DNA of 64,000 nt. Source: Eunapius fragilis (taxonomy: Eukaryota; Porifera; Demospongiae; Spongillida; Spongillidae). A program made the position numbers and the translations under genes. A model generated the notes under the pieces. It was not told the DNA's origin. It made no database searches and saw only the letters and a program-made list of their open reading frames with translations. Every line of letters starts with the position of its first letter. Position 1 is the stretch's first letter. The stretch is taken from NCBI GenBank assembly GCA_963681505.1, contig OY811981.1, positions 5,190,437 to 5,254,436 of the forward strand. Reading direction: 5' to 3'. This document shows positions 19,901-55,436 of this stretch, piece after piece.

Positions 19901-20022
19901 TTTAGTTGTTACGTAATAATTGTAATGTGTCGCGTGATTCATTATTCCTTTGAACGTGAAGTGAGGGTGGATTGTCGCGTACGGAATCTACAGTGATCCT
20001 GCGATTGTAAAGATCTTGCACA
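19901..20022 (+). repeat. 5' LTR of the BEL/Pao element
   Basis: 122 bp, identical by eye to 25697-25818. It contains TGTTACGTAATAATTGTAA near its start and ends AAGATCTTGCACA. If the canonical TG...CA rule is applied the LTR is 116 bp (19907-20022), but the six preceding bases are also shared by both copies. It is unusually short for BEL LTRs. Confidence 0.9.
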
Positions 20023-20040
20023 TGGTCCTATCGAGCCTGG
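20023..20040 (+). promoter_or_regulatory. Candidate tRNA primer-binding site
   Basis: TGGTCCTATCGAGCCTGG directly follows the 5' LTR, where a PBS complementary to a tRNA 3' end is expected to start with TGG. The priming tRNA was not assigned. Confidence 0.5.
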
Positions 20041-20052
20041 GATTATACCAGT

Positions 20053-23000
20053 ATGTCTGAGCAAGAAATCGTGAAAAAGAAGCGGATACGCGCCGGTCAT
20101 CGGGGTTCCGTTAAACGTATTACATCGCAGGCACAGGAAATGCTGGAGGGCGAAATAAATGTAGCGAAGCTTACCCAATATTTGACGTCACTCAAAGACA
20201 AGCTCGGAATCATTTCGACGCTTGATAGCGAAATTCTGATCGCGACCGAAGAACAAGATGACATCGCCAACGAAATTGAGCAAGCTGACATAACAAGAGA
20301 GTTGATCGAGACAACGATGATGGAGATTCAAGGAGCGCTTTCGGATTTGACCTCCTCACGAGGACGTGCAGCGCAAAACATTCCAGCGAATGGACAAACC
20401 GATGCGCAACCACGGGAAACGACCACGTCATCCTCCACAGAAGTACCATCTTCAGGTAATCAGAGTCAACAACAACAGCGAACAGCGGAAACTACTCGAG
20501 ATTCAAGTGACACTACGCCTGGCAACGCGGAACCTGCAGTTAATGTCAACCCAGGATCTACCTCTAGTAAAGTAAGACTTCCAAAACTGGAACTAAGGAG
20601 ATTTGATGGTGAACTAACAGAATGGACGGCATTTTGGGATTCGTATGAATCGGCTATCCATAACAGCACAGATTTATCTGCGATTGACAAGTTCACTTAC
20701 CTTCGGTCTCTGTTAGAGGGTCCTGCAGCAACTGCAATAGCTGGCTTGACACTTTCATCCCCAAACTACGCTGAGGCAATAACTATCCTGAAGAAACGTT
20801 TTGGCAACAAGCAGGCGATAGTAAGCAGACACATGGACACGCTTATGAACTTGGAGGCAGTGGCTTCACAGAACAACTACAAGGGACTCAGACAGCTGTA
20901 CAACCTTATGGAGTCTCACGTACGAGGCTTGCATGCTCTTGGGATTCCATCGTCATCCTTTGGTACATTGTTGGCATCTGTCTTCATGAACAAGCTCCCA
21001 CCAGAACTTAGACTCACCGTCAGCAGAGAAGTTGTTGAGGATAAGTGGGAACTAGACGCAGTGATGAAGATAGTTGAGAAGGAAATCGATGCCAGGGAGA
21101 GAGCAGCTGCGAGTTTGTGTATGGGTAGTAAAAGACAGAGCAGAGAGCAACCTACGGTAGCTGCACTCCTGACGCCTTCGACTGAGGGTTGCTGCTATTG
21201 TGGGCAGTCACATGTCCCAAATTCTTGTGGGATAGTGAGTAACCCGGAGGCACGAAAAAAGGCACTCTTGAAAGGTGGACGATGCTTTGTGTGTCTGAAG
21301 AAGCATCACATGGCGAAGAAGTGCAGATCTCCTCTTCGATGTTCTACCTGCAATGGAAGACACCATTCCAGCATCTGCTCCGGAACGACTCAAGGCTCAA
21401 GTCCATCAGGTGCACTACCCTCCAGACAGACATCATCAACACAAGCACTGTCCTCACCACAATCGACAACACTGTCCATGTACATTGACATGAAGAATCC
21501 TGTCCTCTTGCAGACCGCTACTGCAACTGTGTACTCCGCTGATAGACCCTATGCTACCACTGTCATCAGACTGATCCTCGATAGCGGCAGCCAGAAGTCA
21601 TACATCACAAATAAGCTTAGAGACTCTCTTAGGTTACCAAGGAAGCAGTCGCAAGTAGTGTCAATCAAGACGTTCGGGTCTCAAGTTGAGAGGATGGAGA
21701 CGTGTGATATTGTGGAGCTCAAATTCAAGGCAAAGATGGGGACGGACTTCGAGCTTTTCTTGTTTACTGTTCCCATGATTTGTGAGCCTCTATCTGGACA
21801 GCCAATAAATTGGGCAGTTGAGCGGTTTCCATACCTACAGGGACTTGATCTAGCTGATTCATGTGACTCAAGCGATGCACTAGAGTTGAGTATCTTGATT
21901 GGAGTGGACCAGTATTGGAAGGTCGCCACAGGAGGAATTCTGCGTGGCAACACCGGGCCTACAGCAATGGAGACGAAGTTAGGATGGGTTCTCTCTGGGC
22001 CTGTTCCTGGACTTAACCGTGATCCATCAATGGCATGTCTGACTTGCTCACATGTTTTGAAGGTTGATACATCCATCAACTCGGTACCACATCGACTCGC
22101 TGACTTGGAAAAGAAGCTGCAAGCATTCTGGGATTTAGGCACTCTTGGGATAGTAGATGGTGAAAACTCTGTTTATGATAAGTTTGTTGAGAGCGTCTCA
22201 TTTCAAGATGGTCGGTACTGCGTGAGTCTCCCTTGGAAGACACCACGTCCCATGCTCCCTGACAACTTTGAACTGAGCCAGAGGAGACTCTTCAACTTAC
22301 TTAAGCGACTTCGTCAGACGCCACATGTCTTGACCCAGTATGATGCTGTTATTCGAGAACAGATCAAGAGTGGCATAGTGGAAATCGTCGAAAACCCACA
22401 CGAGGGACCGATTGGAGCAACACACTACATTCCCCATCATGCAGTCATTAGGGAGGACAAAAAGACAACCAAGATGCGAATTGTATACGATGCTTCCGCC
22501 AAGAGCACTGGACCATCCCTTAATTGTTGCTTGTATGCTGGTCCAACCTTTGGCCAAAACATACTGGACATACTGATTCGGTTTCGTGTTTTTCGGATTG
22601 CAGTGACTGCGGATATTGAAAAGGCGTTTCTGATGGTATCTGTTGCAAGGGAGGACCGCGATGCACTGAGATTCCTCTGGGTTGACGACGTCACAGCACC
22701 ACTACCCAGACTTGTCACACTGCGATTTGCTCGTGTTGTATTTGGCGTATCCTCAAGTCCCTTTCTGTTGAACGCCACGATCAGACGTCATGTGGAGGGC
22801 TATCGACTCAGCGATCCGTTGTTTGTGGAAAGGTTCATTCGTTCAATCTATGTCGATGACCTTACTTGTGGATCAGACAGTGAAGAAGGAGCTATTGAAC
22901 TGTACACTAAGTCCAGGCAGTGTATGGCTGAAGCGGGATTCAACCTAAGGAAGTTCATCTCCAATTCGTCAGCTGTTCAAGCTCACATTTCTTCTCAAAC

Positions 23001-25644
23001 ATCATCCACAACAGAGATTGGTGATGGCCTACTCACACATGACGATGAATCCTACACGAAGACCACCCTAGGGGAGCATGAACAGTCGGACAACTCTGGG
23101 ACTGCGAAGGTGTTGGGGGTGAAGTGGAGACCAAGAGATGATGTCCTCATCTTTGATATCAGCAACCTTCACAGTATCGCTACCGTTACAGAACCCACCA
23201 AACGGAACATTATTGGGCTCTGTGCAAGGTTCTACGACCCTCTGGGATTTGTTTCGCCTGTAACAGTGCGATTTAAGATACTATTCCAGGAAATTTGCGC
23301 TGCCAAGCTGGACTGGGATGCTCACTTAGATGGTGAATTACTGAAGAAGTGGAATGGATTGCTGTTGGGTCTTCGACAGTCACAACCACTCTATGTTCCA
23401 CGTTGCTACTTCCATGGTCTTGACAAGCCTACTTCTTGCAACCTCGTTGGGTTTTGTGACGCTTCAAAAAGGGCATATGCAGCAGTTGTTTACCTGAAAA
23501 TGAGACTTGCAGATAAATGTGTCGTACGATTCGTAGTTTCAAGAACAAGGGTCGCCCCTCTGAACACGCAATCGATACCAAGGCTTGAACTGTTGGCTGC
23601 TCTTCTTCTTTCTCGACTATTATTCAGTGTAGCCAGTGCCCTAGGACCAGAGTTAGTACTTGGTGAACCAGTGTGTTATACTGACTCAAAAATTGCACTG
23701 TTCTGGATCAGGGGATATGAGAAAGAATGGAGACAGTTTGTTCAAAATCGTGTCAATGAAATTCGATCCTTGATTCCTACCAAGTATTGGCACCATTGTT
23801 CTGGCGAAACGAATCCGGCTGATCTTCCTTCAAGAGGAGTCGATCTTTCTGAGCTGACCGAGAGCACATTGTGGTTCACGATACCCCATCACATTTATGA
23901 ACCTGAGCAATTGAACTGTGATTCTGCTTCAGAAGTTGTCCCAGAGGAGTGCTTGGCAGAACTGAAGACTGAGGCTCGCCCTCAAGGCATCCATAACTTA
24001 TTGACCCATGCTTCTGCTCGTCTGAACGATGCCATAAAGTGTGAAGATTTTAGTACGCTCAAACACCTTCTCAAGGTGACGGCTCTCGTAATGAAGTTCG
24101 TTGCGCTTCTAAGGTCAAGAGCAAAGGGTGAAGAGATGACAGCAATGATTAGCACAGTAGATATTGCTAATGCAGAGTTGAGCTGGATCAAGTTGTCACA
24201 AACCTTTGTGCATGACGAGAAGTTTAATGCACACTATCAACAACTTGCTGTATTTTGTGACAAAGATGGTGTTTGGAGATGCAAGGGGAGATTGCATCAT
24301 GCTGACCTACCCGAATCAAGCAAGCATCCTATTCTTCTGGATAAGTCGAACTACTTCACCACGCTGATTGTGAGAGACTGCCACGCTAGAGTTATGCACA
24401 GTGGAGTTAAGGCAACCCTCACTGAACTGCGGTCAAGGTTCTGGATAGTGAAGGGGAGACAATTTGTGCGGAGACTGGTACATGAGTGTAAGGTTTGCAA
24501 ACGGTTTAACTCCAAACCTATTGTTGGACCACCTCCTCCTCCTTTGCCTGACTTCAGAACACAAGTGTCACCGCCATTCAGTTTCACCGGTGTCGATTAC
24601 ATTGGGCCTCTGTTTTTGAGGAATGGTGATAAGATATGGATCTGTCTTTTCACTTGTTGCGTTGTTCGAGCTGTCCATTTGGAGTTAGTTCCAGACTTAA
24701 CAGCAGAAGCGTTCATCCGATGCTTGAGGCGATTTACTGCTAGGCGCGGCATTCCCTGCAAGATTGTCTCAGACAACAGCAAGACATTTAGATCTGCCAG
24801 TAAGATGGTGACCTCGCTCCTAGGCATGCCAGAGACACAACAGCATTTCAAGAACCTTCACATGCAATGGATGTTCATTCTGGAAAAGGCACCGTGGTGG
24901 GGAGGGTTCTATGAGAGGATGGTTCAGCTTGTTAAGAGATGCCTGTTGAAGGTCGTTGGGCAAGCCAGATTGTCACATGATGAATTGTTCACAGTTCTGG
25001 TGGAGGTCGAAGCCACTCTCAACTCTCGCCCCATTTCTTATGTGTCATCAGAGGATGTGGATGAACCGCTCACCCCATCCCACTTGCTTGTTGGTCGCCG
25101 TCTGCTCAATTTACCTGATTCGGTGAACAGTGAGACAGACCCAGACTTCGGAACTAGTCCTGACCGAACTGGCCTGACGCAACGGATGATCTATCTAAAC
25201 AGAATTTTGCACCACTTCTGGGAAAGATGGAAGGCTGAGTATCTCACCGGATTGAGAGAGAGTCACCGTAACTTACAAGCAAGGCCTACCAACGATGCTA
25301 TCGCCGTGGGAGATGTAGTACTGATTCATGAGCCTAACAAACCAAGGTCCTTGTGGCGAATGGGTCGAGTTGAGGAGCTGCTACATGGTTCAGATGGAAA
25401 CGTAAGGGGGGCATCCCTACGCGTGCAATCAGGTGATAGACGTCCAATACTGTTGAGGCGACCTGTTCAGCACATCTATCCACTCGAGACTGATGTTGTA
25501 CCTTCAGGATTGCAAGAACCAGCCACTGACCAAGGAGAGCGTTTGGTTGATCCTATCATTGAGGAGGATAAGGATTCTCATCGTCCTAGAAGAGCAGCAG
25601 CCCAGGCCGCCAGATTTAGGATACAGGAATTACTGAATGATTGA
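20053..25644 (+). CDS. BEL/Pao Gag-Pol polyprotein, 1863 aa
   Basis: Single ORF, starting at the first ATG after the 5' LTR. Domains in order: a helical N-terminus; a DUF1759-type Gag core at about 174-330 (LPKLELRRFDGELTEWTAFW); zinc knuckles at 411-424 (CFVCLKKHHMAKKC) and 430-442; an aspartic protease (DUF1758) with LILDSGSQ at 507-514; a reverse transcriptase at about 790-940 with SIYVDDLTCGS (YVDD at 933-936); a Pao/A17-type linker; RNase H at about 1130-1265 (FCDASKRAYAA, CYTDSKIALFW, NPADLPSRG); an integrase H2C2 finger (H1444, H1449, C1479, C1482); an integrase core with D1515 (GVDYIG), D1574 (SDNS) and E1621 (GFYERMV); and a DUF5641-type tail near 1710-1830. All catalytic positions look present, and 1863 residues is a normal BEL length. 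Gag and Pol share one frame. It is probably autonomous. Confidence 0.95.
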   Translation: MSEQEIVKKKRIRAGHRGSVKRITSQAQEMLEGEINVAKLTQYLTSLKDKLGIISTLDSEILIATEEQDDIANEIEQADITRELIETTMMEIQGALSDLTSSRGRAAQNIPANGQTDAQPRETTTSSSTEVPSSGNQSQQQQRTAETTRDSSDTTPGNAEPAVNVNPGSTSSKVRLPKLELRRFDGELTEWTAFWDSYESAIHNSTDLSAIDKFTYLRSLLEGPAATAIAGLTLSSPNYAEAITILKKRFGNKQAIVSRHMDTLMNLEAVASQNNYKGLRQLYNLMESHVRGLHALGIPSSSFGTLLASVFMNKLPPELRLTVSREVVEDKWELDAVMKIVEKEIDARERAAASLCMGSKRQSREQPTVAALLTPSTEGCCYCGQSHVPNSCGIVSNPEARKKALLKGGRCFVCLKKHHMAKKCRSPLRCSTCNGRHHSSICSGTTQGSSPSGALPSRQTSSTQALSSPQSTTLSMYIDMKNPVLLQTATATVYSADRPYATTVIRLILDSGSQKSYITNKLRDSLRLPRKQSQVVSIKTFGSQVERMETCDIVELKFKAKMGTDFELFLFTVPMICEPLSGQPINWAVERFPYLQGLDLADSCDSSDALELSILIGVDQYWKVATGGILRGNTGPTAMETKLGWVLSGPVPGLNRDPSMACLTCSHVLKVDTSINSVPHRLADLEKKLQAFWDLGTLGIVDGENSVYDKFVESVSFQDGRYCVSLPWKTPRPMLPDNFELSQRRLFNLLKRLRQTPHVLTQYDAVIREQIKSGIVEIVENPHEGPIGATHYIPHHAVIREDKKTTKMRIVYDASAKSTGPSLNCCLYAGPTFGQNILDILIRFRVFRIAVTADIEKAFLMVSVAREDRDALRFLWVDDVTAPLPRLVTLRFARVVFGVSSSPFLLNATIRRHVEGYRLSDPLFVERFIRSIYVDDLTCGSDSEEGAIELYTKSRQCMAEAGFNLRKFISNSSAVQAHISSQTSSTTEIGDGLLTHDDESYTKTTLGEHEQSDNSGTAKVLGVKWRPRDDVLIFDISNLHSIATVTEPTKRNIIGLCARFYDPLGFVSPVTVRFKILFQEICAAKLDWDAHLDGELLKKWNGLLLGLRQSQPLYVPRCYFHGLDKPTSCNLVGFCDASKRAYAAVVYLKMRLADKCVVRFVVSRTRVAPLNTQSIPRLELLAALLLSRLLFSVASALGPELVLGEPVCYTDSKIALFWIRGYEKEWRQFVQNRVNEIRSLIPTKYWHHCSGETNPADLPSRGVDLSELTESTLWFTIPHHIYEPEQLNCDSASEVVPEECLAELKTEARPQGIHNLLTHASARLNDAIKCEDFSTLKHLLKVTALVMKFVALLRSRAKGEEMTAMISTVDIANAELSWIKLSQTFVHDEKFNAHYQQLAVFCDKDGVWRCKGRLHHADLPESSKHPILLDKSNYFTTLIVRDCHARVMHSGVKATLTELRSRFWIVKGRQFVRRLVHECKVCKRFNSKPIVGPPPPPLPDFRTQVSPPFSFTGVDYIGPLFLRNGDKIWICLFTCCVVRAVHLELVPDLTAEAFIRCLRRFTARRGIPCKIVSDNSKTFRSASKMVTSLLGMPETQQHFKNLHMQWMFILEKAPWWGGFYERMVQLVKRCLLKVVGQARLSHDELFTVLVEVEATLNSRPISYVSSEDVDEPLTPSHLLVGRRLLNLPDSVNSETDPDFGTSPDRTGLTQRMIYLNRILHHFWERWKAEYLTGLRESHRNLQARPTNDAIAVGDVVLIHEPNKPRSLWRMGRVEELLHGSDGNVRGASLRVQSGDRRPILLRRPVQHIYPLETDVVPSGLQEPATDQGERLVDPIIEEDKDSHRPRRAAAQAARFRIQELLND

Positions 25645-27156: not shown

Positions 27157-29088
<1,932 letters not shown>

Positions 29089-30261: not shown

Positions 30262-31775
30262 TCATTCTGTCGAAAGTCGAGAAAGGCAGTCGGCGTTGCC
30301 GTTGTCCTTTCCAGGCCGATGGCGGACCTTGAACTTGAATGGTTGCAGTGCAATGCTCCACCTTGAGAGCTTTGCATTGTTCTCTCGAAGTCGGTCCAAC
30401 CATTCTAGCGCTCGATGGTCTGTCTGGATTATGAAGGGTCTTCCCAGAGATAGACTCTAAAGGCCTGTGTCGCCAATTAGATGGCTAGACATTCTTTCTC
30501 TATGGTAGCGTATTTCTGCTCTCTGGCGAGTAATTTAGGCACTGGGTGGTCAGCACCTTCTTCGTCCAGTTGACTCAGCACAGCACCTACACCCACATCA
30601 GAAGCATCCGTTTGCAGAAGGAACTCATTTGTAAAGTCAGGACTTTGCAGAACCAGTTCAACACATTGAAGGTTCTTCAGCTTCTGAAATGAGCCCTCGC
30701 ATTTCTCTGTCCACACCACCTGATTTGGTGCAACATTCTTGGTGAGGTCTGTCAGAGGTGCTGCAATGCTGGTCTGGGATAAATTTCCTGTAGTAGCCAG
30801 TCATGGCCAGGAAACGCCGTACTTGTTTTTTCGTTGTAGGAGTAGGAAAAGACTCTACACCTTGCACCTTACTCCTCTCGGGTTGTACTAGTCCACTGCC
30901 AACAGCATAACCCAAATACACACATCTTGACATCCCCAACTGGCACTTCTGGGCTTTGCCGTGAGTCCTGCTGACTGTAAGCGTTGGAATACTGACTGTA
31001 TCTGTGTCAGGTGTTCCTCCCAAGTGGTACTGTGTATCACCAAGTCATCTATGTAAGCAGCTGCATAGTCCTCCAGACCTTGCAGGACCTTGTCCATAAG
31101 CCACTGGAACGTTGCTGGGGCACCCTGAAGACAAAAGGCATCACTCGAAACTGAAAGAGGCCAAAGGGAGTGGTGAAGGCTGTGAGGTGTCTGGATAACC
31201 TTGCCATTGGTACCTGCCAGTACCCATGGGTGAGGTCTAGGGTAGTGATGAACTTTGCCTTTCCCAACCGGTCAATCAGGTCGTCGATCCGTGGCATGGG
31301 ATATGCATCAGCCATCGACTCAGCTTTTAGTCGACGATAGTCAACGCACAATCTAAGTGTACCATCCTTCTTGTCCACCACTACTATAGGAGAAGCCCAC
31401 TTACTTGATGAAAGTTCTATGACCCCAGCATCAAGCATCTCCTTTATCTCCTTTTCTACTAGGTCTCGATATGCATGAGGTAACCGGTATGGTGGTAGTC
31501 TGACTGGACTTGCCCCCTGTGGTAGTCTGCTCCACCTCTGTTGTACGTCCTGGGATACTGTTCATCACATCCGGGAATTTCCCTAACAATCTGGTCAGCT
31601 GGGACTTCTGGACTTCTGATAGCTGTTTCTCCACTGTTGGATCACCTTTCTCACTACCTCTCCAATCAGGAATATCATCCTCACTATCCTCTGCACTCTC
31701 CACATCAGCCCAGTAATTACCATATATTGGAGTATTCCATTTTTTCAGCAAATTGATGTGAAAAGTCCTCTCCCG
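30262..31775 (-). pseudogene. Ty3/gypsy reverse transcriptase and RNase H, frameshifted
   Basis: Read on the minus strand: an integrase-tail-like start (FHINLLKKW near 31755); a linker ending IPGRTTEVEQ; RT with VVVDKKDGTLRLCVDYRRLK, FITTLDLTHGYWQVPM and, in a second frame, AAAYIDDLVIHS (Y-I-D-D box near 31055); FPTPTTKKQVRRFLAMTGYY; RNase H with EFLLQTDASDVGVGAVLSQ; and finally VRHRPGKDNGNADCLSR, ending at a stop at 30262. Frameshifts occur near 31500, 31130, 31010 and 30720 at least. The sequence upstream on the coding strand is split off by the CACTA-like insertion at 31776. Confidence 0.85.
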
Positions 31776-32562
31776 CACTGTGCAAAAAACCTAGTATACG
31801 CTAGCGTATATTTTTGCGTATATTTCGCGTATACCATCAATATACCAAGGGTAGTGTATATTTCGAATATCCACCTGGTATATTTCAAGAATCCCTAGGT
31901 GACAATTATTCATTGTGCGTATTCTCGAAATATCACGTATACGCACACCGCAATGAATTATGCAACGCATTCAAATCTAAATAACTTACATTGAATAATT
32001 TGAACCGCAGTATGCCTGCTATGTGAATTCGAACGTAGAGCATTATGGACGTTTACCACTTGAACTATAAGCGTCGGTACGTATGTAAGATATTAATGAT
32101 GCATGGCATGGCTTAACAGGTGGGTAAGATAAGTGAGGAGGACAGGAATGGGGGTGTGTATGCCAGGGTTATGTGTTATCGCATGCGTCACTGTTGACCA
32201 GTGGGTACTTTAGGCAACACTAGCTAAGTTAACGAATGCGTAATTGTATGCTGTATACCAGTGGGTCAATGTGTCTACAGGATGGTAGGAAGCATGGGAG
32301 GCCATGTTTGACCGGGAGCAATCTTTGTAACCAGGTAGCCCAGCAGGGTGGTGAATTGGCCGCCCATGCAACCATATAATTGCAGCTCATCATTTATATC
32401 AGCCATTGTTTTAAAGTGTGTGAGGGAGCAGGAGAATGGTCAAGATTCCCAGTGAGAAGGACCTAGAGTTGCAGAGGTTAGCTGATATGGTTCCTGACAA
32501 ATAGGCCAACAGTATGATCACCACTGAAATAGCAGTGAAATAGCAGTGACACCTTGTGGTCT

Positions 32563-32835
32563 TGGCACTTGCACTGTGTAAAAAGGGTTGTTATACTCGC
32601 CTGTATAACATTGTTATACAAGTAGTTATACAGCATTTGTTATACACATTGCATATAATTGTGTATAACTGTGTATAATGGTAGTATGTACTAATTAAAA
32701 AACCGCAGTGTAAAAAGGGTTGTTATACTCGCCTGTATATCCGCCTGTATATCATTGTTATACAAGTAACTGTTATACACATTATGTGTATAACTGTATA
32801 CATGTGATGCTAATTTTATACCGCATCATAGCGAG
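32563..32835. repeat. Internal tandem duplication with TIR-like starts and TTATAC motifs
   Basis: Two ~135 bp units begin CACTGTGTAAAAAGGGTTG and CGCAGTGTAAAAAGGGTTG and continue with TTATACTCGCCTGTATA and many TTATAC/GTATAA motifs. The start resembles the element terminus CACTGTGCAAAAA, so this may be a fossil end of a related element. It is conserved in copy B at about 52260-52505. Confidence 0.7.
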
Positions 32836-33319
32836 GGCGTAATTCGTTGTTAATTGAGCTATTGGCCATTAATAATGGGCCATTAAATTTAAATTTAAAA
32901 AGAAAGATGGCTATACGTGTTCCGAAGTGTCAAATAAAGAAATCGCGGAAGGAAAGCGTATATCTGGTTGGTCGGAGTTCTGGCTAAAATGTATGTATAC
33001 ACATACTAGCTTAGTTTATGAATTACGCACATTTGAATTTGATTCGTCTACCGGTACTTGTATACAGTTTCAGTGATGATATGTGTGAAGCCAAAAAGCC
33101 CCAAGTTGTGTAGACGTCGCGTTGGATGGAGTGACCACTGAAAGGTAAGCCAATGTAGTTTTGTAATATTTCTGGGTTGTACCATGTATATAAATAATTT
33201 ATGGTTGTCATACATACTATTATAATCAATTTTTAAAAGTCACCTTTTGAAATGGGCTGATTGTAACTGTGGCAACCAGCTCAGTATACACGCCCAGGGT
33301 CAGGCTACATGCTGCATAT

Positions 33320-33480
33320 GTGTGTGATTGTGTGTGTGTTGTGTGTGTGTGTGTGTGTATACATGTGTATGTAATAGTAACATGTATGATATGTGTGTGC
33401 ATTTGGTACATGTGTGTGCGTGTGTGTTTGTTGTGTGCATGTATGCGCATACATGTGTATGTGAGCATGTATATGTGTAC
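33320..33480. repeat. TG/TATG microsatellite in CACTA-like copy A
   Basis: (TG)n followed by TGTATG and CATGTG variants; slightly longer than the equivalent tract in copy B (about 53005-53160). Confidence 0.8.
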
Positions 33481-33670
33481 ACGTTCAACGTGTGTATATT
33501 CACTGATTCAATGTTCCTGTTACATTGGTCATGATGTAATCTGTGCATCAAGCATGCAGGATCGGTGCTCTGGGTACATTGCATGTATATGTGTGTTCTG
33601 AGTTATTGGTGAGACAAGCGTATGCCGTTTGACAGTCTGATGCACATGAACAATGGCCTCCTTGATAATA

Positions 33671-34680
33671 ATGTGCTCACCTCATGCTGTCATGTGCTCA
33701 CCTCATGCTGTCATCATGTGCTCTCCTCATGCTGTCATCATGTGCTCACCTCATGCTGTCATGTGCTCACCTCATGCTGTCGTCATGTGCTCACCTCATG
33801 CTGTCATGTGCTCACCTCATGCTGACATCATGTGCTCACCTCATGCTGTCATCATGTGCTAACCTCATGCTGTCATGTGCTCACCTCATACTGTCATTAT
33901 GTGCTAACCTCATGCTGTCATGTGCTCACCTCATACTGTCATTATGTGCTAACCTCATGCTGTCATGTGCTCACCTCATACTGTCATCATGTGCTCACCT
34001 CATGCTGTCATGATCTCACCGCATACTGTCATCATGTGCTAACCTCATGCTGTCATGTGCTCACCTCGTACTGTCATCATGTGCTCACCTCATGCTGTCA
34101 TCATGTGCTATCCTCATGCTGTCATCATGTGCTAACCTCATGCTGCCATCATGTGCTCACCTCATGCTGACATGTGCTACCCTCATGTTGTCATCATGTG
34201 CTAACCTCATGCTGTCATGTGCTCACCTCATACTGTCATCATGTGCTAACCTCATGCTGTCATCATGTGCTAACCTCATGCTGTCATCATGTGCTCACCT
34301 CATGCTGTCATGTGCTCACCTCATGCTGTCATCATGTGCTAACCTCATGCTGTCATCATGTGCTCACCTCATGTTGTTATCATGTGCTCACCTCATGCTG
34401 ACATGTGCTACCCTCATGTTGTCATCATGTGCTAACCTCATGCTGTCATGTGCTCACCTCATACTGTCATCATGTGCTAACCTCATGCTGTCATCATGTG
34501 CTAACCTCATGCTGTCATCATGTGCTCACCTCATGCTGTCATGTGCTCACCTCATGCTGTCGTCATGTGCTCACCTCATGTTGTTATCATGTGCTAACCT
34601 CATGCTGTCATGTGCTCACCTCATACTGTCATGTGCTCACCTCATACTGTCATGTGTTCACCTCATACTGTCATCAGGTG
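33671..34680. repeat. Minisatellite of 21/24 bp units in copy A
   Basis: About 45 units of GTGCTCACCTCATGCTGTCAT, with or without an extra CAT, and with variants CTAACC for CTCACC and ATACTG for ATGCTG. Because unit lengths are multiples of three, long ORFs rich in S-C-A-H-L-M-L run through it; these are artefacts. Higher-order patterns of variants are shared with copy B. Confidence 0.95.
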
Positions 34681-37137
34681 CCTGATGAAGATGGTTTGGT
34701 ATTTAATGCTAGCATTCCTACTTACCCTAATCACCTAATAATGTCTACTAAACCACATCACATGATCTTAACACTCACCTTGCATGCACACACATGCGCA
34801 CACACATACACACATACACACATACACACACATACACATACTTGAAGAAGTTGCCAAGGGGTAATACACTCACACAGTTGGTGGGATGGCTGCTTTACCA
34901 CACCCCATGATGAGGCTACCATGATGCATGTAGCCACAGTCTTGATAACTGGGGCACTCCTGCCAAAGGGGAGGGTTGATGGACTAACTGTGGGCTGTTA
35001 GCACTGAAGTTTGATTGCTTTGGTGTCACTCTGAAGTTTTATAGTTCACTGTGTGATGTTTAGTCAGTGCCAAATAGACCCAGGCAGCAATATGTTTTGG
35101 TGCCTAGCTGTGTAGGGCTTTCATTGTTCTGTGAACATTCTTACATGTAGTGGTTGTATTGAAGGACCTTTTGGGAGGATATTGGCATGTGTGCAGCTAC
35201 ATACATAGGGTACGCATGTGTGTGTATCTGTCTGCATGTCACTAGGAGAAGAAAGCACAATTCTGTCAAGATGTGTGTATGCATGTGTCTGCATTTTATA
35301 CCAGTATGTGCATGTGCATCCACATATGTTTACAATTGTCTGTACGTGCTTATATCTGTGTGAGTAGGTGAAGATGCTTAGAATGTGGTTTGAAAGAGGC
35401 GAATGTGATTTTGGAGCATTCAGAATGAAAATGTTTAGCTAGAGGCTTGGCGCTTGGAGGTGGCACCAGTATTACTGCCATTTAGTAGCTGAGTGCACTA
35501 AGAATCTATCCTTCTCAATAGTCTTCATCCAAATTGTATGTATGGTATGTTTGCATGGTGTGATATCTTTAAATGATATATTTTCACTCTGATAGGATCA
35601 AGCCTTACATCAATTGAATGAATCAAATAAAGTGGCAGTCCCTGGTGTGCATCTAATAGAGTCATGTTCGTAGGTGTGCATCAAATAGAATCATGTTAGT
35701 GGCCAGACCAGGTATTGTAATACAGTCTTGTGTACATCAAATAAGTCATTTCTAAGTTGCTTTTGAAACCCCACTCTGAGCAGAACAAATACAGTGTGTA
35801 CGAGGCTTCTTGTCAAATGAATGTAACGCGCATGCGTAGACTCTTCAAAGCCGCATGCATATATGGCGTCATCGTCGGGAAATCTACTGCAACTATAACC
35901 GTACGTTCCTATCATCCAGAAGAAATATCTTAGGTGGGTCTTCAAGTAAATTGAGGGACTAGTGGCTAATTCCCAAGTCTCTCCTCTAACAGGTCCCCGA
36001 GAAACGATGAAGTCATGTCGTCACAGCAGAACCTACATGTACATGTATATCGATACTAGTACGATGATGACGAAGAAGACCGCGCCAAACCCTAGGTCCT
36101 AGGCAGCATGGCGATGCTGTTTGCACGGTCCGTTACACTACTGCAGGAGGTTGCGAAACTACAGATCCAAAACTGTCTCAAAGCGATGCTGTAAGACCAA
36201 CTCGAGGGAAAAGGACATCACTTTCTGTACAGGTACAGTAACGTTATATCGGCTTTTTTTTTTCCTACTGAGAAGAATCCAGCTGGAAGTCTCGAAGCGT
36301 AAGCAGTGATCATCATCACCTTTTTTTTCTCGATCAAATTTAGAGACGTCATAAAAACTAGCAAAGGCAGAGCGGGTAAGAGATTGCGTTTTCATTCACA
36401 CTTGCTGTTTATCAGTGTCTGTTGTCAGAATTGACAAATTATACGAAGAGCGGAGATAGAGAAGTAGCGGATTGCTTTGGAGTATAAGGTAATGGCTTCG
36501 TTTGTTTTAACCCTGTATATTCCCTGCAGCTAGACAAGGAAACTTCAGATTCAGCTGAGCTTGTCAAGCAATCCCGCCGTCAGTGTAGGCCTCTGTTTGC
36601 ATTTGTATCGTATGGATGCTCTATTTTGCTGTAGCTATATGGACTATGGTGACAGTACAGGGAAGCAGTTTGAAGCCTACGCTCAACTACTGCCGCGCGT
36701 TTCGTTAGAAGAGGTTGCAATGGATTTCTGAGCAACTCGTGGCAACGGCGGGTTGGAGGGCCACTACTGGAGTATCTCCTTCCTGGATGGCTGGAGAGCT
36801 TGAACGTTGTCTATTGATTGTATTGCTTTATTTAATATTGATAATAATTTTAATACTAATCAAGCCAGTATACAACGAACATAATCGGGTGGCGTACCCA
36901 ATACAGTATACGGTCAACGTAGGTACAGTGTAGTATCCGGAGACATTAATTAGAGAATCCTCCATAGCGCACGTGATACATTTGAGGATACTCGAAATAT
37001 ACGCAGTGCGAAATTGGTTCTATACGCAAAATATACCAGTGGGATATTTCGCGTATACGCACGCGTATATTCGTGCGTATACTCGAAATATACGCAAAAT
37101 ATACAATAGCGTATATCCTATTTTTTGCACAGTGCCG

Positions 37138-45972: not shown

Positions 45973-46175
45973 GTTTGATGAGATAGCTTTAAAGATTTAA
46001 TGAGATTGATGAGATTCATTAGGCTAGGGGCCCGAGAAAAAATTTGCCCCGGGCCCGGGCTGGCTCTTGGCGGCCCTGCTGTTCAGTTCTTTGTGGAGGA
46101 TATCCATTTGAGGTACTCGGCTTGCGAGCGCTACAGAGTTGTGGCACAACGATGGATAGATAAATGGTATGTCTA

Positions 46176-46378
46176 TGTTACGGCCCAATTTAAAACCTGA
46201 CCCGTTTTAAAACGGGTCGCCCGTTTTAAAGCCGGTCGACCGGTTTTAAAGCCGGTCAACCGGTTCTAAAATGGGTCGACCGATTTTAAAACCAATATGC
46301 AAAACTGACCCGTTTTAAAGCGGGTTGACCCGGCCGTTTTAAAGCGGGTTGACCGGTTTTGAAACCGGGTACCGGTAA
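46176..46378. repeat. Left terminal/subterminal region of the Ginger-type element
   Basis: After TGTTACGGCCCAATTTAAAA come about nine partly palindromic units of the type ACCCGTTTTAAAACGGGTCG or CCGGTTTTAAAGCCGGTC. The region reads like a chain of GGTCGACC- and TTTTAAA-centred dyads and is a likely transposase-binding array. Confidence 0.85.
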
Positions 46379-46534
46379 CTGGATCAGTTAACAGTGTATA
46401 GACTGAGAAAATTTAATGAAATAAATAGCATGCAGCAAATTAAAATAACGACGAGCGCACACAAAAAACAGATCTAAAAAGGCAAGTTCCTTGAGTACAT
46501 TAAACTAAGTTTGGTTCGTGAGAATTGCGGGCCG

Positions 46535-47232
46535 TTATTTATCCTTGCATGAATCACACATCCATGGTGTTGAAGGCGTGTTCCAAACATTTTCTGGTAC
46601 AGTTATACACCCTTGATGGAACCATTCCTTGCAAACGTCACATTCCACCATGTTACCATCCTCTTTGCTCTGACATGTGCAGATGATTTCAAGTAGCTGT
46701 GTCTCCTTTACCATCTTCTTCCTTTTTAACATCTCACGATTAAAAGGTTCCATTTCATTTTGCATCAAGCAATTCAACACTGACATGCTTTCTCATGTCA
46801 GTGTTAGAGAAGGTGATGTGTGGTGGGTTATCTCCGGAACAGAGAGCTGCACAAAATGCTAATGCATAAAGACCACAGTCATTCGCATTATTCTGCTTGT
46901 CGACATTGATGAAATGCAGGGTTACATTTGGTTCATGGGTCATAAGCAGTGCACATATCTGCTTTTGTGTGGTACTAGGTAGAGTGCAACACATACTGTC
47001 ATATATGTTGACTGTAGAGTAGGGACAACCGATAGTAGATATGGTAAGCCAATGGTTTCCACCAGAATTCAACACTTGCACAAACTCTTCTCCACCTACT
47101 ATACAGCCCTGGAGTGCTGCGGCGAGTAGTGTATTCTGGAGACCTGGCGTACCATACTTGCTCTTTAGGAGGGTTTGCACAGCATTGATGATGTTGTCAT
47201 TCAACCAGGATTGGTTGTTTTCAAGAATAGAT
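46535..47232 (-). other. Last exon: Ulp1-like protease and PHD finger with frameshift
   Basis: The acceptor TTTTTTGTTCAG precedes 47232. The Ulp1 catalytic set is visible: His in GGNHWLTIS, Asp in NIYDSM, Gln/Cys in KQNNANDCG. Near 46785 the frame that encodes NTDMRKHVSV leads to a stop at 46755, whereas the +1 frame continues NCLMQNEMEPFNREM into a C4HC3 PHD finger ending at 46535. In relatives these modules are usually one polypeptide. Confidence 0.8.
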
Positions 47233-50200
47233 CTGAACAAAAAAGGATGATATAAATGTTTTATATAATCACCCATGCACATATTTTTACAATGTTACCT
47301 GTCTGCTTCATACAATTGAAATTCACCAAATGTCATCCAGAGCTTTGGCTTCCTTGAGGTGCATTTGCGCTTAGTCTTCCTGCCCTCCTCCAACTCAGAC
47401 TCCACAGGATGTTCAGCAGCGTCTTCTGCAGATTCATCATGTTTCTCAAATTCTTCTCTTGCTTTGAAAACCCATTCACATAGAGTATCCACATCTGCAT
47501 AATGAAGAAAGAGGCATTCATCTCCAAAGAATTGCACAACGGTGGCGGGAATAGGCCTCATGTGCATATTCCAGTACTGCAGCAATGGACCACACTGCAA
47601 GTAGCAGCCTTGGGAAAGTAATGGCATGGATGAAACAAAAGCATCAAACTGTGTATGTATGTCTTCATTAACTATGACAAATCCCAAGGCTTGCACAAGC
47701 GATGGCTTTTTGTCAAAACTCCCAGAATGAAGCCAAAGTGATACGTGAGTGTTCACATACAGTCCATACTCCGTTGAGTCATGAATGTATTTGGAAAGCT
47801 GCAGTGAAGGTTGGGTTGTGTTATTAACTACAACACATGCAAAAAATTACAGCTCACGATGCTTACATGTACATCTAAGTCTTCATCCTCTCTGCAACTG
47901 TGGTTATACATTGTACTTCCTGATCTCCATAAATCCAATCTCTGTGATGAGAGCAGTTCATCTTCAGTTCCTTACTACCTAAAAAGTCATTTATATCATC
48001 TCATACAAATGAGATACTGCATGTAATGCACAATTTTTGCATTCAGACTTACCTTGAATATGGGTGCAAAATTTGATCCAAGGGTCAAAATCTACATCAC
48101 AAGTGGCAGTGTGAACATCTTCAATAATCTTGCGAGTTACACTGCTGAAAAAATTTTGGTACATGGTACAGTTTGATCAATTTCAATTTAAACAAAAAAA
48201 ACGTACGTTGGACAGTTTGAACATGGTGCCGACTTGTGGCAATAGGTGCTACAGCTTATATTTTTCCTTACACACCGACACTTGCGATTTAGACAGCCTG
48301 TCGTGCACTTGCAAGCATTGGTCACAAAATGATTCCAAGGTGCTTGTTTCCTAACTGCTTCTCTTAATGAGATAAAAGGCTGATTTTGCCAATTCTCTAC
48401 TTCGCACATTCCAGATCCATTGTATTTCTCGAGTTCTCCAGCAGTGTAGCAGACATTCAAAACTCCATTTTGGCATCTGAAGTTGAACACATGGGATGAT
48501 GATTTCACAAAGTAACTCGCAAAAGTAACACAATTGAAAACAATATACCTCAATCTGTAAAGGCTCTGGTCTCCTCCGACAATTTCAACAACAACACAAG
48601 GCAAACGAGATAGGTCAGAACTGGCTCGATCAATACGAGGAATTCTGACTGACACACTTTCACCAATCACAAATGACAATGTGCTGTGTTGTTTGTTGTA
48701 TCTTTCTGCCATCTTCTTAGCAGAAGAAAGGTACTTTCTGTCAGCTTTGATTCTGATCTATATAAGAATGAAAACAAACATCAGGCTAAATCTGATCAAA
48801 ATCAAAAAACAGTCAATAATTTTTAACCTCTTTATGCTTAAGCAAAGTGGAAAGTGCATTTTCTCGTATGCTATTCCTGTGATCCCCATTTGACTTGACT
48901 TCATCTTTATCAGATTCGTCATTCTCTTCAAGTAGCTCTCTTTCAATTGTTTCACTTTCTGCCGCACTAACATCAGCATGCTGGGTGTCCTTGGCTCCAT
49001 TGACTACATTCTCTGTCACAGACACTTGATGTGAAGAGCTTTTTGAGCACTGGGCATCCTCTGCACCTATCTTTGCATCCTCTTCTGTTGGAAATGCTTG
49101 CTGATGCACTGGGCTCATGACTGTAGCTTGCTTCGCTTCTGGTGAAAAACCAACATCAATCCCTTCATCGGCCAAGTCTTCCTCTAACACAATTGCACTT
49201 TGCTGTGTTGGGAAGATGACACTTCGGGCTTTTTGACCAAACACAAGTTCATATGGAGATGCTCCTGTAGTATCATGCACTTGGGTATTCATAGCATCTA
49301 AGGAAAAAACAACTATTTACTATATGAATTCTAATATACAAAACCAACTTACAAACTATACGTGGTAGCCAATCACTCCAAGGTGGTGTCTTCATACCAC
49401 TCGCACTGATTTCGGCTGCCATCTTTTTGTGCAGGGTTTGATGTGCTCTTTCAACTAATCCTTGGCTTTGAGGATGTCTAGGGCGACCACTAACCAACTG
49501 AATATTAGAGTTCCAAAGCTTTAGCAAGTCAACGATTACCCCATTCACAAATTCTCGACCGATGTCAGAATGTAAAATGCGAGGTACTCCAAAATAAGGG
49601 AATACATGTGTATTGAGATTATCTGCAACATTTGCAGCACTCTTAGTTTCCAAAGCATATGCAAAATTGAACTTAGACCAATGGTCCACACAGTGGAGTA
49701 TCCACTTTTTATTTCGTTGAGGAAGGTGCCTCTTATCAATCAGATCAATCTAGAAAAGAAATTTAAGAACTTTAGTGTACTAATGAAAGGCTCCGGCTAT
49801 TTGTTGCACAGGGTGCTGCTAAACACTGTGATCTAACTACATTGTAGCACTCCAAAATAGAAAAAAAGCCTATAACTACTGTGACAGTCACACAACTAAA
49901 GGACTACTATGTGATTGACATGAAACTGGTCAATTTCTTTTATCATGTGTGTGAATCTGTCATGCATATATGTTCTTTTGATACAAAAATAAATGCATTG
50001 CTCTAGAAGCCAGCTGTAAAGCCTAAACTTGTGCTCCATATATAGAGTAAATGCAATTAAAATAATCACCAAACATTAAAATTAGGCATGAATAATAATT
50101 GTTAACACAGTCCAAGGGTAAAAAGCAGGTCAGGTATTACAAAGTATTGTAACATAAATCTAGGACAAACAATTTGCTTACTTGCAATCTGCAGAAAAAC

Positions 50201-50889
50201 CCATTTGCAATGATTGGCTTCAGAGGAGGAGTCGATAGCTGTGGTTTCCGAAGCTGACAAGATGGGCACAGAGATACAAATTTTTCAACCACGCTTCTTG
50301 GAATCCCATGATACAAACTCTGCAACTGAGCACAAGAATACATATTCAGTAACAGACACATGGGCGACATGACACCATACCTTTTCAAACGTCTTCTTGT
50401 ACCCACCATGTAACACATCCTTTTCATGGACATCACGAATGATTTCATAGAATTCTTCAACATGCGCTACTCTTCTGTACTTATCAAGAGCGGTATTGTC
50501 CTCCACCAAGCCCTATATAAATGACGCATTTATCTCAGTTTCCTACGCTGCAAAAACACTACAACTTTACATTTTGTGCGATGAATGGCAACAACACGCA
50601 TCAATAGTCGTCTACAATTTAGTGAGAAGTACCTGCTCTTTCACTGGAACAACAAGAACATCGCGAGCTCCTAGACTAGGGATGTTCAGAATCTGGAATC
50701 CCTTCTTCTTAACAAAGAAGCGCAAGTTCTTGTCAACAGACGATGGGTCTTTTATGGCGGTTTTAATTTTGTCTCCTAAGTCTTTGTAAACTACACCGCT
50801 AGTTCCTCTATCATTGGAGGAAAACTTCTCGGCCAGAAAGGCTCCAAACTCCTTCTCTCGATCGTACATATCCATTTCATAGCCAAATG
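46535..50889 (-). CDS. Ginger transposase: HHCC zinc domain, integrase, Cys-rich, Ulp1-like protease, PHD finger (11 exons)
   Basis: Exon model (minus): 50889-50633, 50512-50381, 50325-50182, 49749-49353, 49297-48828, 48757-48549, 48476-48207, 48144-48053, 47970-47867, 47798-47299, 47232-46535; start codon ATG at 50875 (MDMYDREKEFGAFLAEK). All introns are GT..AG and all phases agree. Domains: HHCC (VLHGGYKK to CPSCQLRK), DDE integrase core (IDLIDKRH, HSDIGREF, GLVERAHQTL), acidic linker, post-integrase SH3-like part (VIGESVSVRIPR), Cys-rich block, then Ulp1/C48 (SWLNDNIINA, GGNHWLTIS, IYDSM, QNNANDCGLYAL: His, Asp and Cys present), then PHD (ICTCQSKEDGNMVECDVC, WFHQGC, WMCDSC). The Ulp1 frame stops at 46755, while PHD lies in another frame starting near 46786, so a one-base lesion separates them. 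Predicted length is about 1012 aa without PHD. Confidence 0.85.
48207..48476 (-). other. Cys-rich exon of the Ginger gene
   Basis: Begins after a CTTCAG acceptor with CQNGVLNVCYTAGELEKY and ends with CKCTTGCLNRKCRCVRKN and CSTYCHKSAPCSNCP, a CRC/tesmin-like cysteine cluster often found after the integrase in KRBA2/Ginger-type proteins. It probably binds zinc. The 72 bp intron before it and the GTACGT donor after it keep phase. Confidence 0.7.
49353..49749 (-). other. Integrase-core exon of the Ginger gene
   Basis: Carries first Asp (IDLIDKR), second Asp (LHSDIGREFVNG) and Glu (QGLVERAHQTL) of the DDE triad, with the RPRHPQSQG motif shared with gypsy integrases. The exon is bounded by TTTTCTAG and GTAAGT. 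Confidence 0.85.
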
Positions 50890-50963
50890 CTAAAAAAATG
50901 CAACTGAACTGAGATTTTGACACGTAGAAATTGTAAACCACGTGTTCTTATAAAAATTAATTA

Positions 50964-51067
50964 GCCCGTTTTAAAGCCGGTCGACCGGCTTGGAAATGGG
51001 TTAACCCGCTTTAAATTGGGTCGACCTGTTTTAAAACGGGTCAAAAGTTTTAAATCGGGCCGTAACA
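50964..51067. repeat. Right terminal/subterminal region of the Ginger-type element
   Basis: Inverted counterpart of the left end, with about five units such as GCCCGTTTTAAAGCCGGTCG and CCTGTTTTAAAACGGGTC, shorter than the left array. The outermost 19-20 bp match the left end with one mismatch. Confidence 0.85.
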
Positions 51068-51071
51068 TCTA

Positions 51072-51447
51072 TACTAAAATGGCTGTTACATGTCGGTGCA
51101 ACAAGTACAGTCCTTATATAGCTCGAAAATACAAACTGAAGTGCTTGGTTAGGTCATGATGCATGATGTCATCGTTTCAATATTTCGGGGCGTAGGTCTT
51201 ATTGTCCAACATTGAATGGGCCGCAAACAGCCGTGACATATGGGGGATTTGACATTTATTAAATCAAATGCCCCACTGTTGGGGACTAATAACTGGTCAA
51301 ATGACCCCTCCTCGACCCAGTCCCGTTATATGTTTGATACCTTTTATAACCTACGGTTTCGTTCCTGCTATTCAAAACGAACGCGCGTTAGCTTTTGTAG
51401 GTATACAGCTCATATTATGCCGCTATAAGAGTTGTAGTTATAATTGT
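51072..51447. other. Short unassigned spacer
   Basis: Beyond the exon-like stretch ending near 51150 no feature is recognised; the spacer ends with the TGT duplication of copy B. Confidence 0.5.
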
Positions 51448-53350
51448 CACTGTGCAAAAAACCTAGTATACGCTAGCGTATATTTTTGCGTATATTTCGC
51501 GTATACCATCAATATACCAAGGGTAGTGTATATTTCGAATATCCACCTGGTATATTTCAAGAATCCCTAGGTGACAATTATTCATTGTGTGTATTCTCGA
51601 AATATCACGTATACGCACACCGCAATGAATTATGCAACGCATTCAAATCTAAATAACTTACATGTATAACTTTGATATGAATAATTTGAACCGCAGTATG
51701 CCTGCTATGTGAATTCGAACGTAGAGCATTATGGACGTTTACCACTTGAACTATAAGCGTCGGTACGTATGTAAGATATTAATGATGCATGGCATGGCTT
51801 AACAGGTGGGTAAGATAAGTGAGGAGGACAGGAATGGGGGTGTGTATGCCAGGGTTATGTGTTATCGCATGCGTCACTGTTGACCAGTGGGTACTTTAGG
51901 CAACACTAGCTAAGTTAACGAATGCGTAATTGTATGCTGTATACCAGTGGGTCAATGTGTCTACAGGATGGTAGGAAGCATGGGAGGCCATGTTTGACCG
52001 GGAGCAATCTTTGTAACCAGGTAGCCCAGCAGGGTGGTGAATTGGCCGCCCATGCAACCATATAATTGCAGCTCATCATTTATATCAGCCATTGTTTTAA
52101 AGTGTGTGAGGGAGCAGGAGAATGGTCAAGAGTCCCAGTGAGAAGGACCTAGAGTTGCAGAGGTTAGCTGATATGGTTCCTGACAAATAGGCCAACAGTA
52201 TGATCACCACTGAAATAGCAGTGAAATAGCAGTGACACCTTGTGGTCTTGGCACTTGCACTGTGTAAAAAGGGTTGTTATACTCGCCTGTATAACATTGT
52301 TATACAAGTAGTTATACAGCATTTGTTATACACATTGCATATAATTGTGTATAACTGTGTATAATGGTAGTATGTACTAATTAAAAAACCGCAGTGTAAA
52401 AAGGGTTGTTATACTCGCCTGTATATCCGCCTGTATATCATTGTTATACAAGTAACTGTTATACACATTGTGTATAACTGTATACATGTGATGCTAATTT
52501 TATACCGCATCATAGCGAGGGCGTAATTCGTTGTTAATTGAGCTATTGGCCATTAATAATGGGCCATTAAATTTAAAATTAAAAAGAAAGATGGCTATAC
52601 GTGTTCCGAAGTGTCAAATAAAGAAATCGCGGAAGGAAAGCGTATATCTGGTTGGTCGGAGTTCTGGCTAAAATGTATGTATACACATACTAGCTTAGTT
52701 TATGAATTATGCACATTTGAATTTGATTCGTCTACCGGTACTTGTATACAGTTTCAGTGATGATATGTGTGAAGCCAAAAAGCCCCAAGTTGTGTAGACG
52801 TCGCGTTGGATGGAGTGACCACTGAAAGGTAAGCCAATGTAGTTTTGTAATATTTCTGGGTTGTACTATGTATATAAATAATTTATGGTTGTCATACATA
52901 CTATTATAATCAATTTTTAAAAGTCACCTTTTGAAATGGGCTGATTGTAACTGTGGCAACCAGCTCAGTATACACGCCCAGGGTCAAGCTACATGCTGCA
53001 TATGTGTGTGATTGTGTGTGTGTTGTGTGTGTGTGTGTATACATGTGTATGTAATAGTAACATGTATGATATGTGTGTGCATTTGGTACATGTGTGTGCG
53101 TGTGTGTTTGTTGTGTGCATGTATGTGCATACATGTGTATGTGAGCATGTATATGTGTACACGTTCAACGTGTGTATATTCACTGATTCAATGTTCCTGT
53201 TACATTGGTCATGATGTAATCTGTGCATCAAGCATGCAGGATCGGTGCTCTGGGTACATTGCATGTATATGTGTGTTCTGAGTTATTGGTGAGACAAGCG
53301 TATGCCGTTTGACAGTCTGATGCACATGAACAATGGCCTCCTTGATAATA

Positions 53351-54486
53351 ATGTGCTCACCTCATGCTGTCATGTGCTCACCTCATGCTGTCATCATGTG
53401 CTAACCTCATGCTGTCTCATGTGCTCACCTCGTGCTGTCATCAATCCTCATGCTGTCATCATGTGCTAACCTCATGCTGTCATGTGCTAATCTCATGCTG
53501 TCATCATGTGCTCACCTCATGCTGACATCATGTGCTCTCCTCATGCTGTCATCATGTGCTCACCTCATGCTGTCATGTGCTCACCTCATGCTGTCATGTG
53601 CTCACCTCATGCTGTCGTCATGTGCTCACCTCATGCTGTCATGTGCTCACCTCATGCTGAAATCATGTGCTCACCTCATGCTGTCATCATGTGCTAACCT
53701 CATGCTGTCATGTGCTCACCTCATACTGTCATTATGTGCTAACCTCATGCTGTCATGTGCTCACCTCATACTGTCATTATGTGCTAACCTCATGCTGTCA
53801 TGTGCTCACCTCATACTGTCATCATGTGCTCACCTCATGCTGTCATGATCTCACCGCATACTGTCATCATGTGCTAACCTCATGCTGTCATGTGCTCACC
53901 TCGTACTGTCATCATGTGCTCACCTCATGCTGTCATCATGTGCTATCCTCATGCTGTCATCATGTGCTAACCTCATGCTGCCATCATGTGCTCACCTCAT
54001 GCTGACATGTGCTACCCTCATGTTGTCATCATGTGCTAACCTCATGCTGTCATGTGCTCACCTCATACTGTCATCATGTGCTAACCTCATGCTGCCATCA
54101 TGTGCTAACCTCATGCTGTCATCATGTGCTCACCTCATGCTGTCATGTGCTCACCTCATGCTGTCATCATGTGCTCACCTCATGTTGTTATCATGTGCTC
54201 ACCTCATGCTGACATGTGCTACCCTCATGTTGTCATCATGTGCTAACCTCATGCTGTCATGTGCTCACCTCATACTGTCATCATGTGCTAACCTCATGCT
54301 GTCATCATGTGCTAACCTCATGCTGTCATCATGTGCTCACCTCATGCTGTCATGTGCTCACCTCATGCTGTCGTCATGTGCTCACCTCATGTTGTTATCA
54401 TGTGCTAACCTCATGCTGTCATGTGCTCACCTCATACTGTCATGTGCTCACCTCATACTGTCATGTGTTCACCTCATACTGTCATC
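53351..54486. repeat. Minisatellite of 21/24 bp units in copy B
   Basis: Same unit as in copy A (GTGCTCACCTCATGCTGTCAT). The array is about 125 bp longer, with the first ~250 bp rearranged and the remainder nearly co-linear, showing array turnover at one edge since the copies separated. Confidence 0.95.
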
Positions 54487-55436
54487 AGGTGCCTGATGAA
54501 GATGGTTTGGTATTTAATGCTAGCATTCCTACTAACCCTAATCACCTAATAATGTCTACTAAACCACATCACATGATCTTAACACTCACCTTGCATGCAC
54601 ACACATGCGCACACACATACACACATACACACATACACACACATACACATTCTTGAAGAAGTTGCCAAGGGGTAATACACTCACACAGTTGGTGGGATGG
54701 CTGCTTTGCCACACCCCATGATGAGGCTACCATGATGCATGTAGCCACAGTCTTGATAACTGGGGCACTCCTGCCAAAGGGGAGGGTTGGTGGACTAACT
54801 GTGGGCTGTTAGCACTGAAGTTTGATTGCTTTGGTGTCACTCTGAAGTTTTTATAGTTCACTGTGTGATGTTTAGTCAGTGCCAAATAGACCAGGCAGCA
54901 ATATGTTTTGGTGCCTAGCTGTGTAGGGCTTTCATTGTTCTGTGAACATTCTTACATGTAGTGGTTGTATTGAAGGACCTTTTGGGAGGATATTGGCATG
55001 TGTGCAGCTACATACATAGGGTACGCATGTGTGTATCTGTGTCTGCATGTCACTAGGAGAAGAAAGCACAATTCTGTCAAGATGTGTGTATGCATGTGTC
55101 TGCATTGTATACCAGTATGTGCATGTGCATCCACATATGTTTACAATTGTCTGTACGTGCTTATATCTGTGTGAGTAGGTGAAGATGCTTAGAATGTGGT
55201 TTGAAAGAGGTGAATGTGATTTTGGAGCATTCAGAATGAAAATGTTTAGCTAGAGGCTTGGCGCTTGGAGGTGGCACCAGTATTACTGCCATTTAGTAGC
55301 TGAGTGCACTAAGAATCTATCCTTCTCAATAGTCTTCATCCAAATTGTATGTATGTTATGTTTGCATGGTGTGATATCTTTAAATGATATATTTTCACCC
55401 TGATAGGATCAAGCCTTACATCAATTGAATGAAACT

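Follow-up and report, generated by a model that had tools for sequence, protein, structure and literature searches.

Ginger1 transposons, as described by Bao, Kapitonov and Jurka (2010), encode a transposase with H2C2, DDE and GPY/F regions that ends in an OTU or Ulp1 protease and sometimes in a PHD finger. One of them, Ginger1-9_HM, carries both Ulp1 and PHD, and in the part of that account drawn on here extra C-terminal protease domains are reported for Ginger1 only (PMC2836005). The same source gives the Ginger1 target as a 4-bp duplication at CCGG or CCGT/ACGG and the Ginger2 target as RTATAY, likewise with a 4-bp duplication; DDE identities are put at 40% at most between Ginger1 and Gypsy and at 24% between Ginger1 and Ginger2 (PMC2836005). 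The literature thus separates the two groups by target and motif, and reports the protease tail for Ginger1. Here we analyze an element that does not divide so neatly. It lies at positions 46176..51067 (4892 bp, gene on the minus strand) of a 64,000-nucleotide stretch, hereafter the window, of the sponge Eunapius fragilis (assembly GCA_963681505.1, contig OY811981.1). Its termini, duplication, copies and empty sites make it very probable that this is a cut-and-paste DNA transposon of the Ginger superfamily, that it belongs to a large group, and that the window copy is partly decayed while younger relatives exist. Its features are mixed: the target and the state of the GPY/F position fit Ginger2, whereas Ulp1 and PHD are reported for Ginger1. 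The choice between the two was judged from published features alone.

Ends, target sites and copies in the genome

The termini, TGTTACGG (window 46176-51067), and the exact 4-bp duplication TCTA on either side (46172..46175 and 51068..51071) are as a preliminary description of this DNA gave them. The outermost 22 bp of the two ends are 95% complementary. They open an imperfect terminal inverted repeat of ~103 bp, the left copy (46176..46275, ~100 bp, plus strand) being 82% identical to the right (50965..51067, minus strand). The ends are inverted and not arranged as direct long terminal repeats (LTRs), and no RVT (reverse transcriptase) match was found in the gene segments scanned with Pfam. 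A Ty3/Gypsy LTR retrotransposon was rejected on the inverted ends.

Both flanks match one interspersed repeat, which was the source of an empty-site comparison. Matches to the left flank (39) were compared with matches to the right flank (39), excluding the window's own rows and one right-flank row that stops short of the junction. Seventeen pairs are contiguous and so represent uninterrupted sites. In 16 of these the two flanks overlap by exactly 4 bp, TCTA being present in a single copy; in the other the overlap is 3 bp, the left alignment ending one base early. The empty-site check proposed in the preliminary description therefore bears out an insertion. The host repeat itself (46079-46175 and 51068-51236) has dozens of copies in the genome, with its right part ~96-97% identical among them.

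The genome (218,937,333 bases in 24 contigs) was searched with a 21-base terminal pattern, allowing up to 3 mismatches. This gave 135 matching termini (66 forward, 69 reverse), against 8 (4 + 4) for the reversed pattern used as a control; the preliminary description had staked its reading on other copies with the same termini, and these were found. Among the terminus matches listed (100 of the 135, plus further listed places), 40 copies could be paired, the window copy included. An exact 4-bp duplication flanks 32 of the 40, compared with 454 of 1560 combinations when flanks were swapped (binomial P ~4e-11). Two copies on C3, L046 and L047, are 1094 bp each, 99.8% identical, 66 kb apart and set in reverse-complementary flanks. 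They seem to have arisen from a single insertion, probably through an inverted segmental duplication, so that the pairs represent 39 events, not 40. Most of the short copies are internal-deletion derivatives that retain both gene ends. Integrase-related stretches number at least 150 in the genome, and a whole-genome scan with Peptidase_C48 gave 55 matches, of which at least 8, judged by eye, lie within ~2.5 kb of listed integrase matches. Thirty-seven stretches of viral contigs matched a pattern, and none encodes a relative.

What does the family insert into? Counted on both strands, the 32 copies with an exact duplication give the consensus RTR[TATA]YAY, and in 19 of them the duplication is TATA itself. 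This is not the CCGG/CCGT of Ginger1. It agrees with the RTATAY of Ginger2, as do the duplications of two related lineages: exact TATA in both L079 and L080, whose integrase is 64% identical to that of the window, and TAAA in L081.

One 5.2-kb copy (L048, G000:C3:11838141-11843569) has the same terminal 20 bp. Its genes are distant from those of the window (integrase 35% identical over part of the core, Ulp1 50%), and the terminal ends seem to be shared across diverged genes.

The left end contains seven TTTAAA-centred near-palindromes (46189..46370), spaced mostly 17-40 bp and often ~20 bp apart, and the right end four such units (50970..51060). Seven TTTAAA in the first 200 bp on the left compare with a shuffle mean of 0.98 (seven or more in 0 of 1000 shuffles), and four in 200 bp on the right with a mean of 0.74 (four or more in 4 of 1000). 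Among 1171 200-bp stretches outside the element the count never exceeds 2. These are likely candidates for transposase-binding arrays. The ends of L081 and L082 have no TTTAAA.

Gene structure and predicted domains

The gene has 11 exons on the minus strand, with GT-AG borders in all ten introns and agreement of every phase, which upholds the model first proposed. Exon 1 (50633..50875) encodes an N-terminal region homologous to that of the sister-family copy L061 (68% at the amino acid level). Exons 2 (50381..50512) and 3 (50182..50319) supply the His and Cys sides of the H2C2 zinc-binding region, exon 4 (49353..49749) the DDE integrase core (rve), reading SDIGREF at and after the second Asp, and exon 5 (48828..49297) the end of the core and an acidic linker. 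An SH3-like module occupies the GPY/F position in exon 6 (48549..48757), and exon 7 (48207..48476) contains a CXC-like Cys cluster (48212..48313). After exons 8 (48053..48144) and 9 (47910..47978), exon 10 (47299..47827) encodes the region preceding the protease and exon 11 (46755..47232) the Ulp1-like protease, whose frame stops at 46755. The PHD-finger reading frame (46535..46792, minus strand) is in this copy out of frame with Ulp1.

Pfam scores exceed their cut-offs for rve (35.3 bits, cut-off 32.6), Peptidase_C48 (22.9, cut-off 20.7) and PHD (41.3, cut-off 24). The alignment shows all four Ulp1 site residues (His, Asp, Gln, Cys), and profile and residues together point to membership of C48. 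In searches of solved structures the protease matched SENP5 and SENP1 best, weakly (E 0.03-0.08), and the PHD finger matched PHF2 best (E 5.6e-6). All the parts originally listed are thus in place: a retrovirus-like integrase, an Ulp1-like protease with its His, Asp and Cys, the Cys-rich cluster in exon 7, and the PHD finger. The Trp beside the PHD His has a role in histone reading. It is present in the window copy and in L100 but replaced in L061, L079 and L081 (Leu, Gly or Arg), so histone reading may differ among lineages.

The GPY/F position reads LPC in all five families looked at, and GPY or GPF in all seven Gypsy-type integrases. A profile comparison (hhalign) of the SH3-like module with the Gypsy C-terminal module gave a weak match (P 0.0014, probability 17.5%), in which degenerate GPY/F homology is faintly visible.

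In the Cys cluster eight Cys, one His and one Asn are invariant across six lineages. The published CXC pattern has nine ligands and a terminal Asn (PMC3447885). As published it fits none of the six lineages; it fits all six if the His beside Cys-7 is taken as the counterpart of Cys-8. Members of the CXC superfamily (MSL2, tesmin/TSO1, pre-SET) have the same CXC spacing and, two residues past the last Cys, the same signature Asn; the cluster departs from them where a His beside Cys-7 replaces Cys-8. Nothing in the PDB matched it, whether it was searched by itself or as a profile.

Since LIN54 reads TTYRAA through its CXC domains (PMC4974476), the cluster could be imagined to recognize TTTAAA within the terminal arrays. 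Arrays at both ends and a CXC-like cluster in the protein of the same element speak for this; however, L081 and L082 retain the cluster although TTTAAA is missing from their ends. Moreover, the tyrosine before the fourth Cys, which we take to be the DNA-reading residue of LIN54, is not seen in any of the six lineages, which have K (two), Q (one) or R (three) there. These two points weaken the idea, as does a cluster that misses the published pattern in every lineage unless His replaces Cys-8, and we regard it as improbable.

Comparison of the window copy with L061 gave nonsynonymous divergence (dN) of 0.11-0.45 per exon, synonymous divergence (dS) of at least 1.5 or saturated, and ratios of 0.30 or less, which are rough because dS is saturated. 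Low dN with saturated dS suggests purifying selection on every module compared; constraint is weakest in exon 10 and PHD. Eleven exons under such selection might also describe a domesticated host gene, and host genes derived from Ginger elements are known (PMC2836005, PMC12863088). Against a host gene stand the terminal inverted repeats, the duplication, the many copies with their internal-deletion derivatives, the broken frame of the window copy, and above all the empty sites, on which it was rejected. We consider a host gene extremely improbable.

State of the window copy and its surroundings

The preliminary description called the element near-intact and almost undamaged, inferred recent activity, and saw a protease coupled to a histone reader. 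The modules exist, but the coupling in one frame fails in this copy: the spliced frame through Ulp1 comes to a stop at 46755, and PHD is read in a different one (46535-46792). In 22 other copies that span this junction, Ulp1 and PHD share a frame in 17, stand as in the window in two (L053, L064) and have a third relation in three (L045, L056, L071). In nine of the 22 just the last Ulp1 codons remain, and in one just the end part of Ulp1; the 12 that retain most of this exon split 8 (one frame), 2 (window-like) and 2 (third). That the break recurs in L053 and L064 suggests transmission by transposition, in which the transposase was probably supplied in trans or the PHD finger was dispensable.

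A second anomaly concerns the catalytic site. Where the window copy has Ile directly after the second catalytic Asp (SDI), the 32 other places with a readable residue have Asn (31) or Gln (1), L056 and L073 being unreadable there. As to age, the nearest full-length copy among those paired, L056, is 93.5% identical to the window copy over the alignment, as against mutual identities of 98.9-99.3% in the sister family L051, L054 and L061; in L061 the frame is open from Ulp1 through PHD, with no stop. Judged from its sequence, the window copy is damaged and partly decayed. Younger in-frame relatives exist; 'recent activity' is not supported for this copy and fits the sister family instead. With a frame that ends after Ulp1 and an altered neighbor at the catalytic site, the copy can probably not drive its own transposition. 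Another lineage, L081/L082, encodes integrase, SH3-like, CXC-like, Ulp1 and PHD modules in that order in a single frame of 740 residues.

Elsewhere in the window, an uninterrupted frame of 1877 residues (20011-25644, plus strand) matches Peptidase_A17, DUF1759, DUF5641 and H2C2, with a sub-threshold RVT_1 match; from these domains it is taken as the polyprotein of a BEL/Pao-type retrotransposon. A separate RVT_1 fragment (41.9 bits) lies at 31049-31561 on the minus strand. A segment is duplicated at 31776-35189 and 51448-55000 (92.6% identity), with a tandem array of a 24-bp unit in both copies; the second copy begins ~380 bp to the right of the element. The window also contains a tandem array of a 61-bp unit (13845-14283, 7.3 copies, 88%) and a long TC dinucleotide run (27162-27578, ~208 units).

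Placement among Ginger and Gypsy-type elements

The preliminary description would have abandoned its reading had the integrase grouped with Gypsy elements. In a tree of 43 integrase rows (31 different), 36 window-like rows are separated with full support from seven Gypsy-type rows of the same genome. Since the rows were picked by similarity, and the Gypsy-type ones assigned by H2C2 score and long frames alone, the tree shows only that the window integrase stands apart from these Gypsy-type elements. Among the rows, a check for inverted ends covered only the window element, its sister family and the pairs L079/L080 and L081/L082.

Several observations count against the reading of this locus as a decayed member of a Ginger family with the modules named above. 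The H2C2 score (24.3 bits) is slightly under its cut-off of 25.5, and the best Pfam match of the Cys cluster, TCR, reaches 10.4-11.4 bits where the cut-off is 23.5. AlphaFold modeled the C-terminal half poorly (mean predicted local distance difference test score, pLDDT, 49.7; predicted template modeling score, pTM, 0.36), so the model supports no claim about fold. Eight of the 40 paired copies lack an exact 4-bp duplication, and L082 has none. Finally, an unseen intron or a frameshift might in principle bridge the frame break.

The features suggest the following course of transposition. An integrase-type transposase would bind the inverted repeats together with the TTTAAA-centred near-palindromes, cut beside the TGT..ACA ends and join these, with a 4-bp stagger, to the palindromic target RTR[TATA]YAY, so that 4-bp duplications of TATA-like sequence result. 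Both the SH3-like and the CXC-like module would probably help to hold DNA. The Ulp1-like protease would probably strip SUMO or ubiquitin-like tags from proteins of the transposition complex, and a PHD finger that is read in frame may recognize histone tails. The manipulation of host SUMO and chromatin that the preliminary description suggested is compatible with the conservation of the domains. A group with mixed features helps to test which follows descent, the choice of target or the accessory domains, and bears also on the origin of Gypsy integrases. The window copy itself is of modest interest. With at least 150 related integrase stretches and a sister family whose in-frame copies are near-identical, the genome is well suited to asking why SUMO-protease and histone-reader modules occur in transposases.

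The assignment to the Ginger superfamily made in the preliminary description holds; its filing under Ginger1 does not follow. With Ginger1 the element shares TGTNR termini (TGTTA...), the 4-bp duplication, H2C2, DDE and introns, a terminal inverted repeat within the Ginger1 range (40-270 bp), and the Ulp1 and PHD tail known from Ginger1-9_HM (PMC2836005). Also counted in favor of Ginger1 are its DDE identity to the Gypsy-type integrases of the genome, 30-34.5%, which lies between the published 40% and 24%, and the trace of GPY/F homology. Against an ordinary Ginger1 with an unusual target stand the target itself and LPC in place of GPY/F; of the Ginger1 motif YPYY, expected ahead of the zinc finger, no clear instance was seen (exons 1-2, inspected by eye, show no P-Y-x-Y). 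The element also has ten introns against 0-4 in Ginger1, and a CXC-like cluster that the consulted part of the source does not mention for Ginger1 (PMC2836005). We hold an ordinary Ginger1 to be possible but rather doubtful.

A Ginger2/TDD element bearing Ulp1, PHD and CXC-like modules is a somewhat better candidate, though still short of probable. By description, everything in the core fits: RTATAY with a 4-bp duplication, TGTNR, a terminal inverted repeat of 50-180 bp, H2C2 and DDE, and no GPY/F (PMC2836005). A Ginger2-like transposase of sesarmid nimaviruses likewise enters (AT/TA)n (PMC10871703, as far as the part consulted goes). That enzyme is also of integrase type but serves a large viral genome, whereas the element described here is a small transposon. 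On the other side, the additional modules are unreported for Ginger2 in the part of the founding account used here (PMC2836005), and 30-34.5% identity to Gypsy-type integrases exceeds the 24% quoted for Ginger1 and Ginger2.

A third Ginger branch, combining the TATA target of Ginger2, the Ulp1-PHD tail of Ginger1, LPC, and a His-substituted CXC that would bind the palindromic arrays, seems unlikely on present evidence. A literature search, with Repbase and subscription journals outside it, found no description of a Ginger element that targets TATA and carries Ulp1, PHD and CXC. Whichever branch it belongs to, the element as a Ginger transposon shares with Ty3/Gypsy integrases the 30-34.5% identity noted above, measured on 139-156 DDE-core residues, and differs from Ty3/Gypsy elements in terminal repeats that are inverted, not direct, and in the lack of a reverse transcriptase match.

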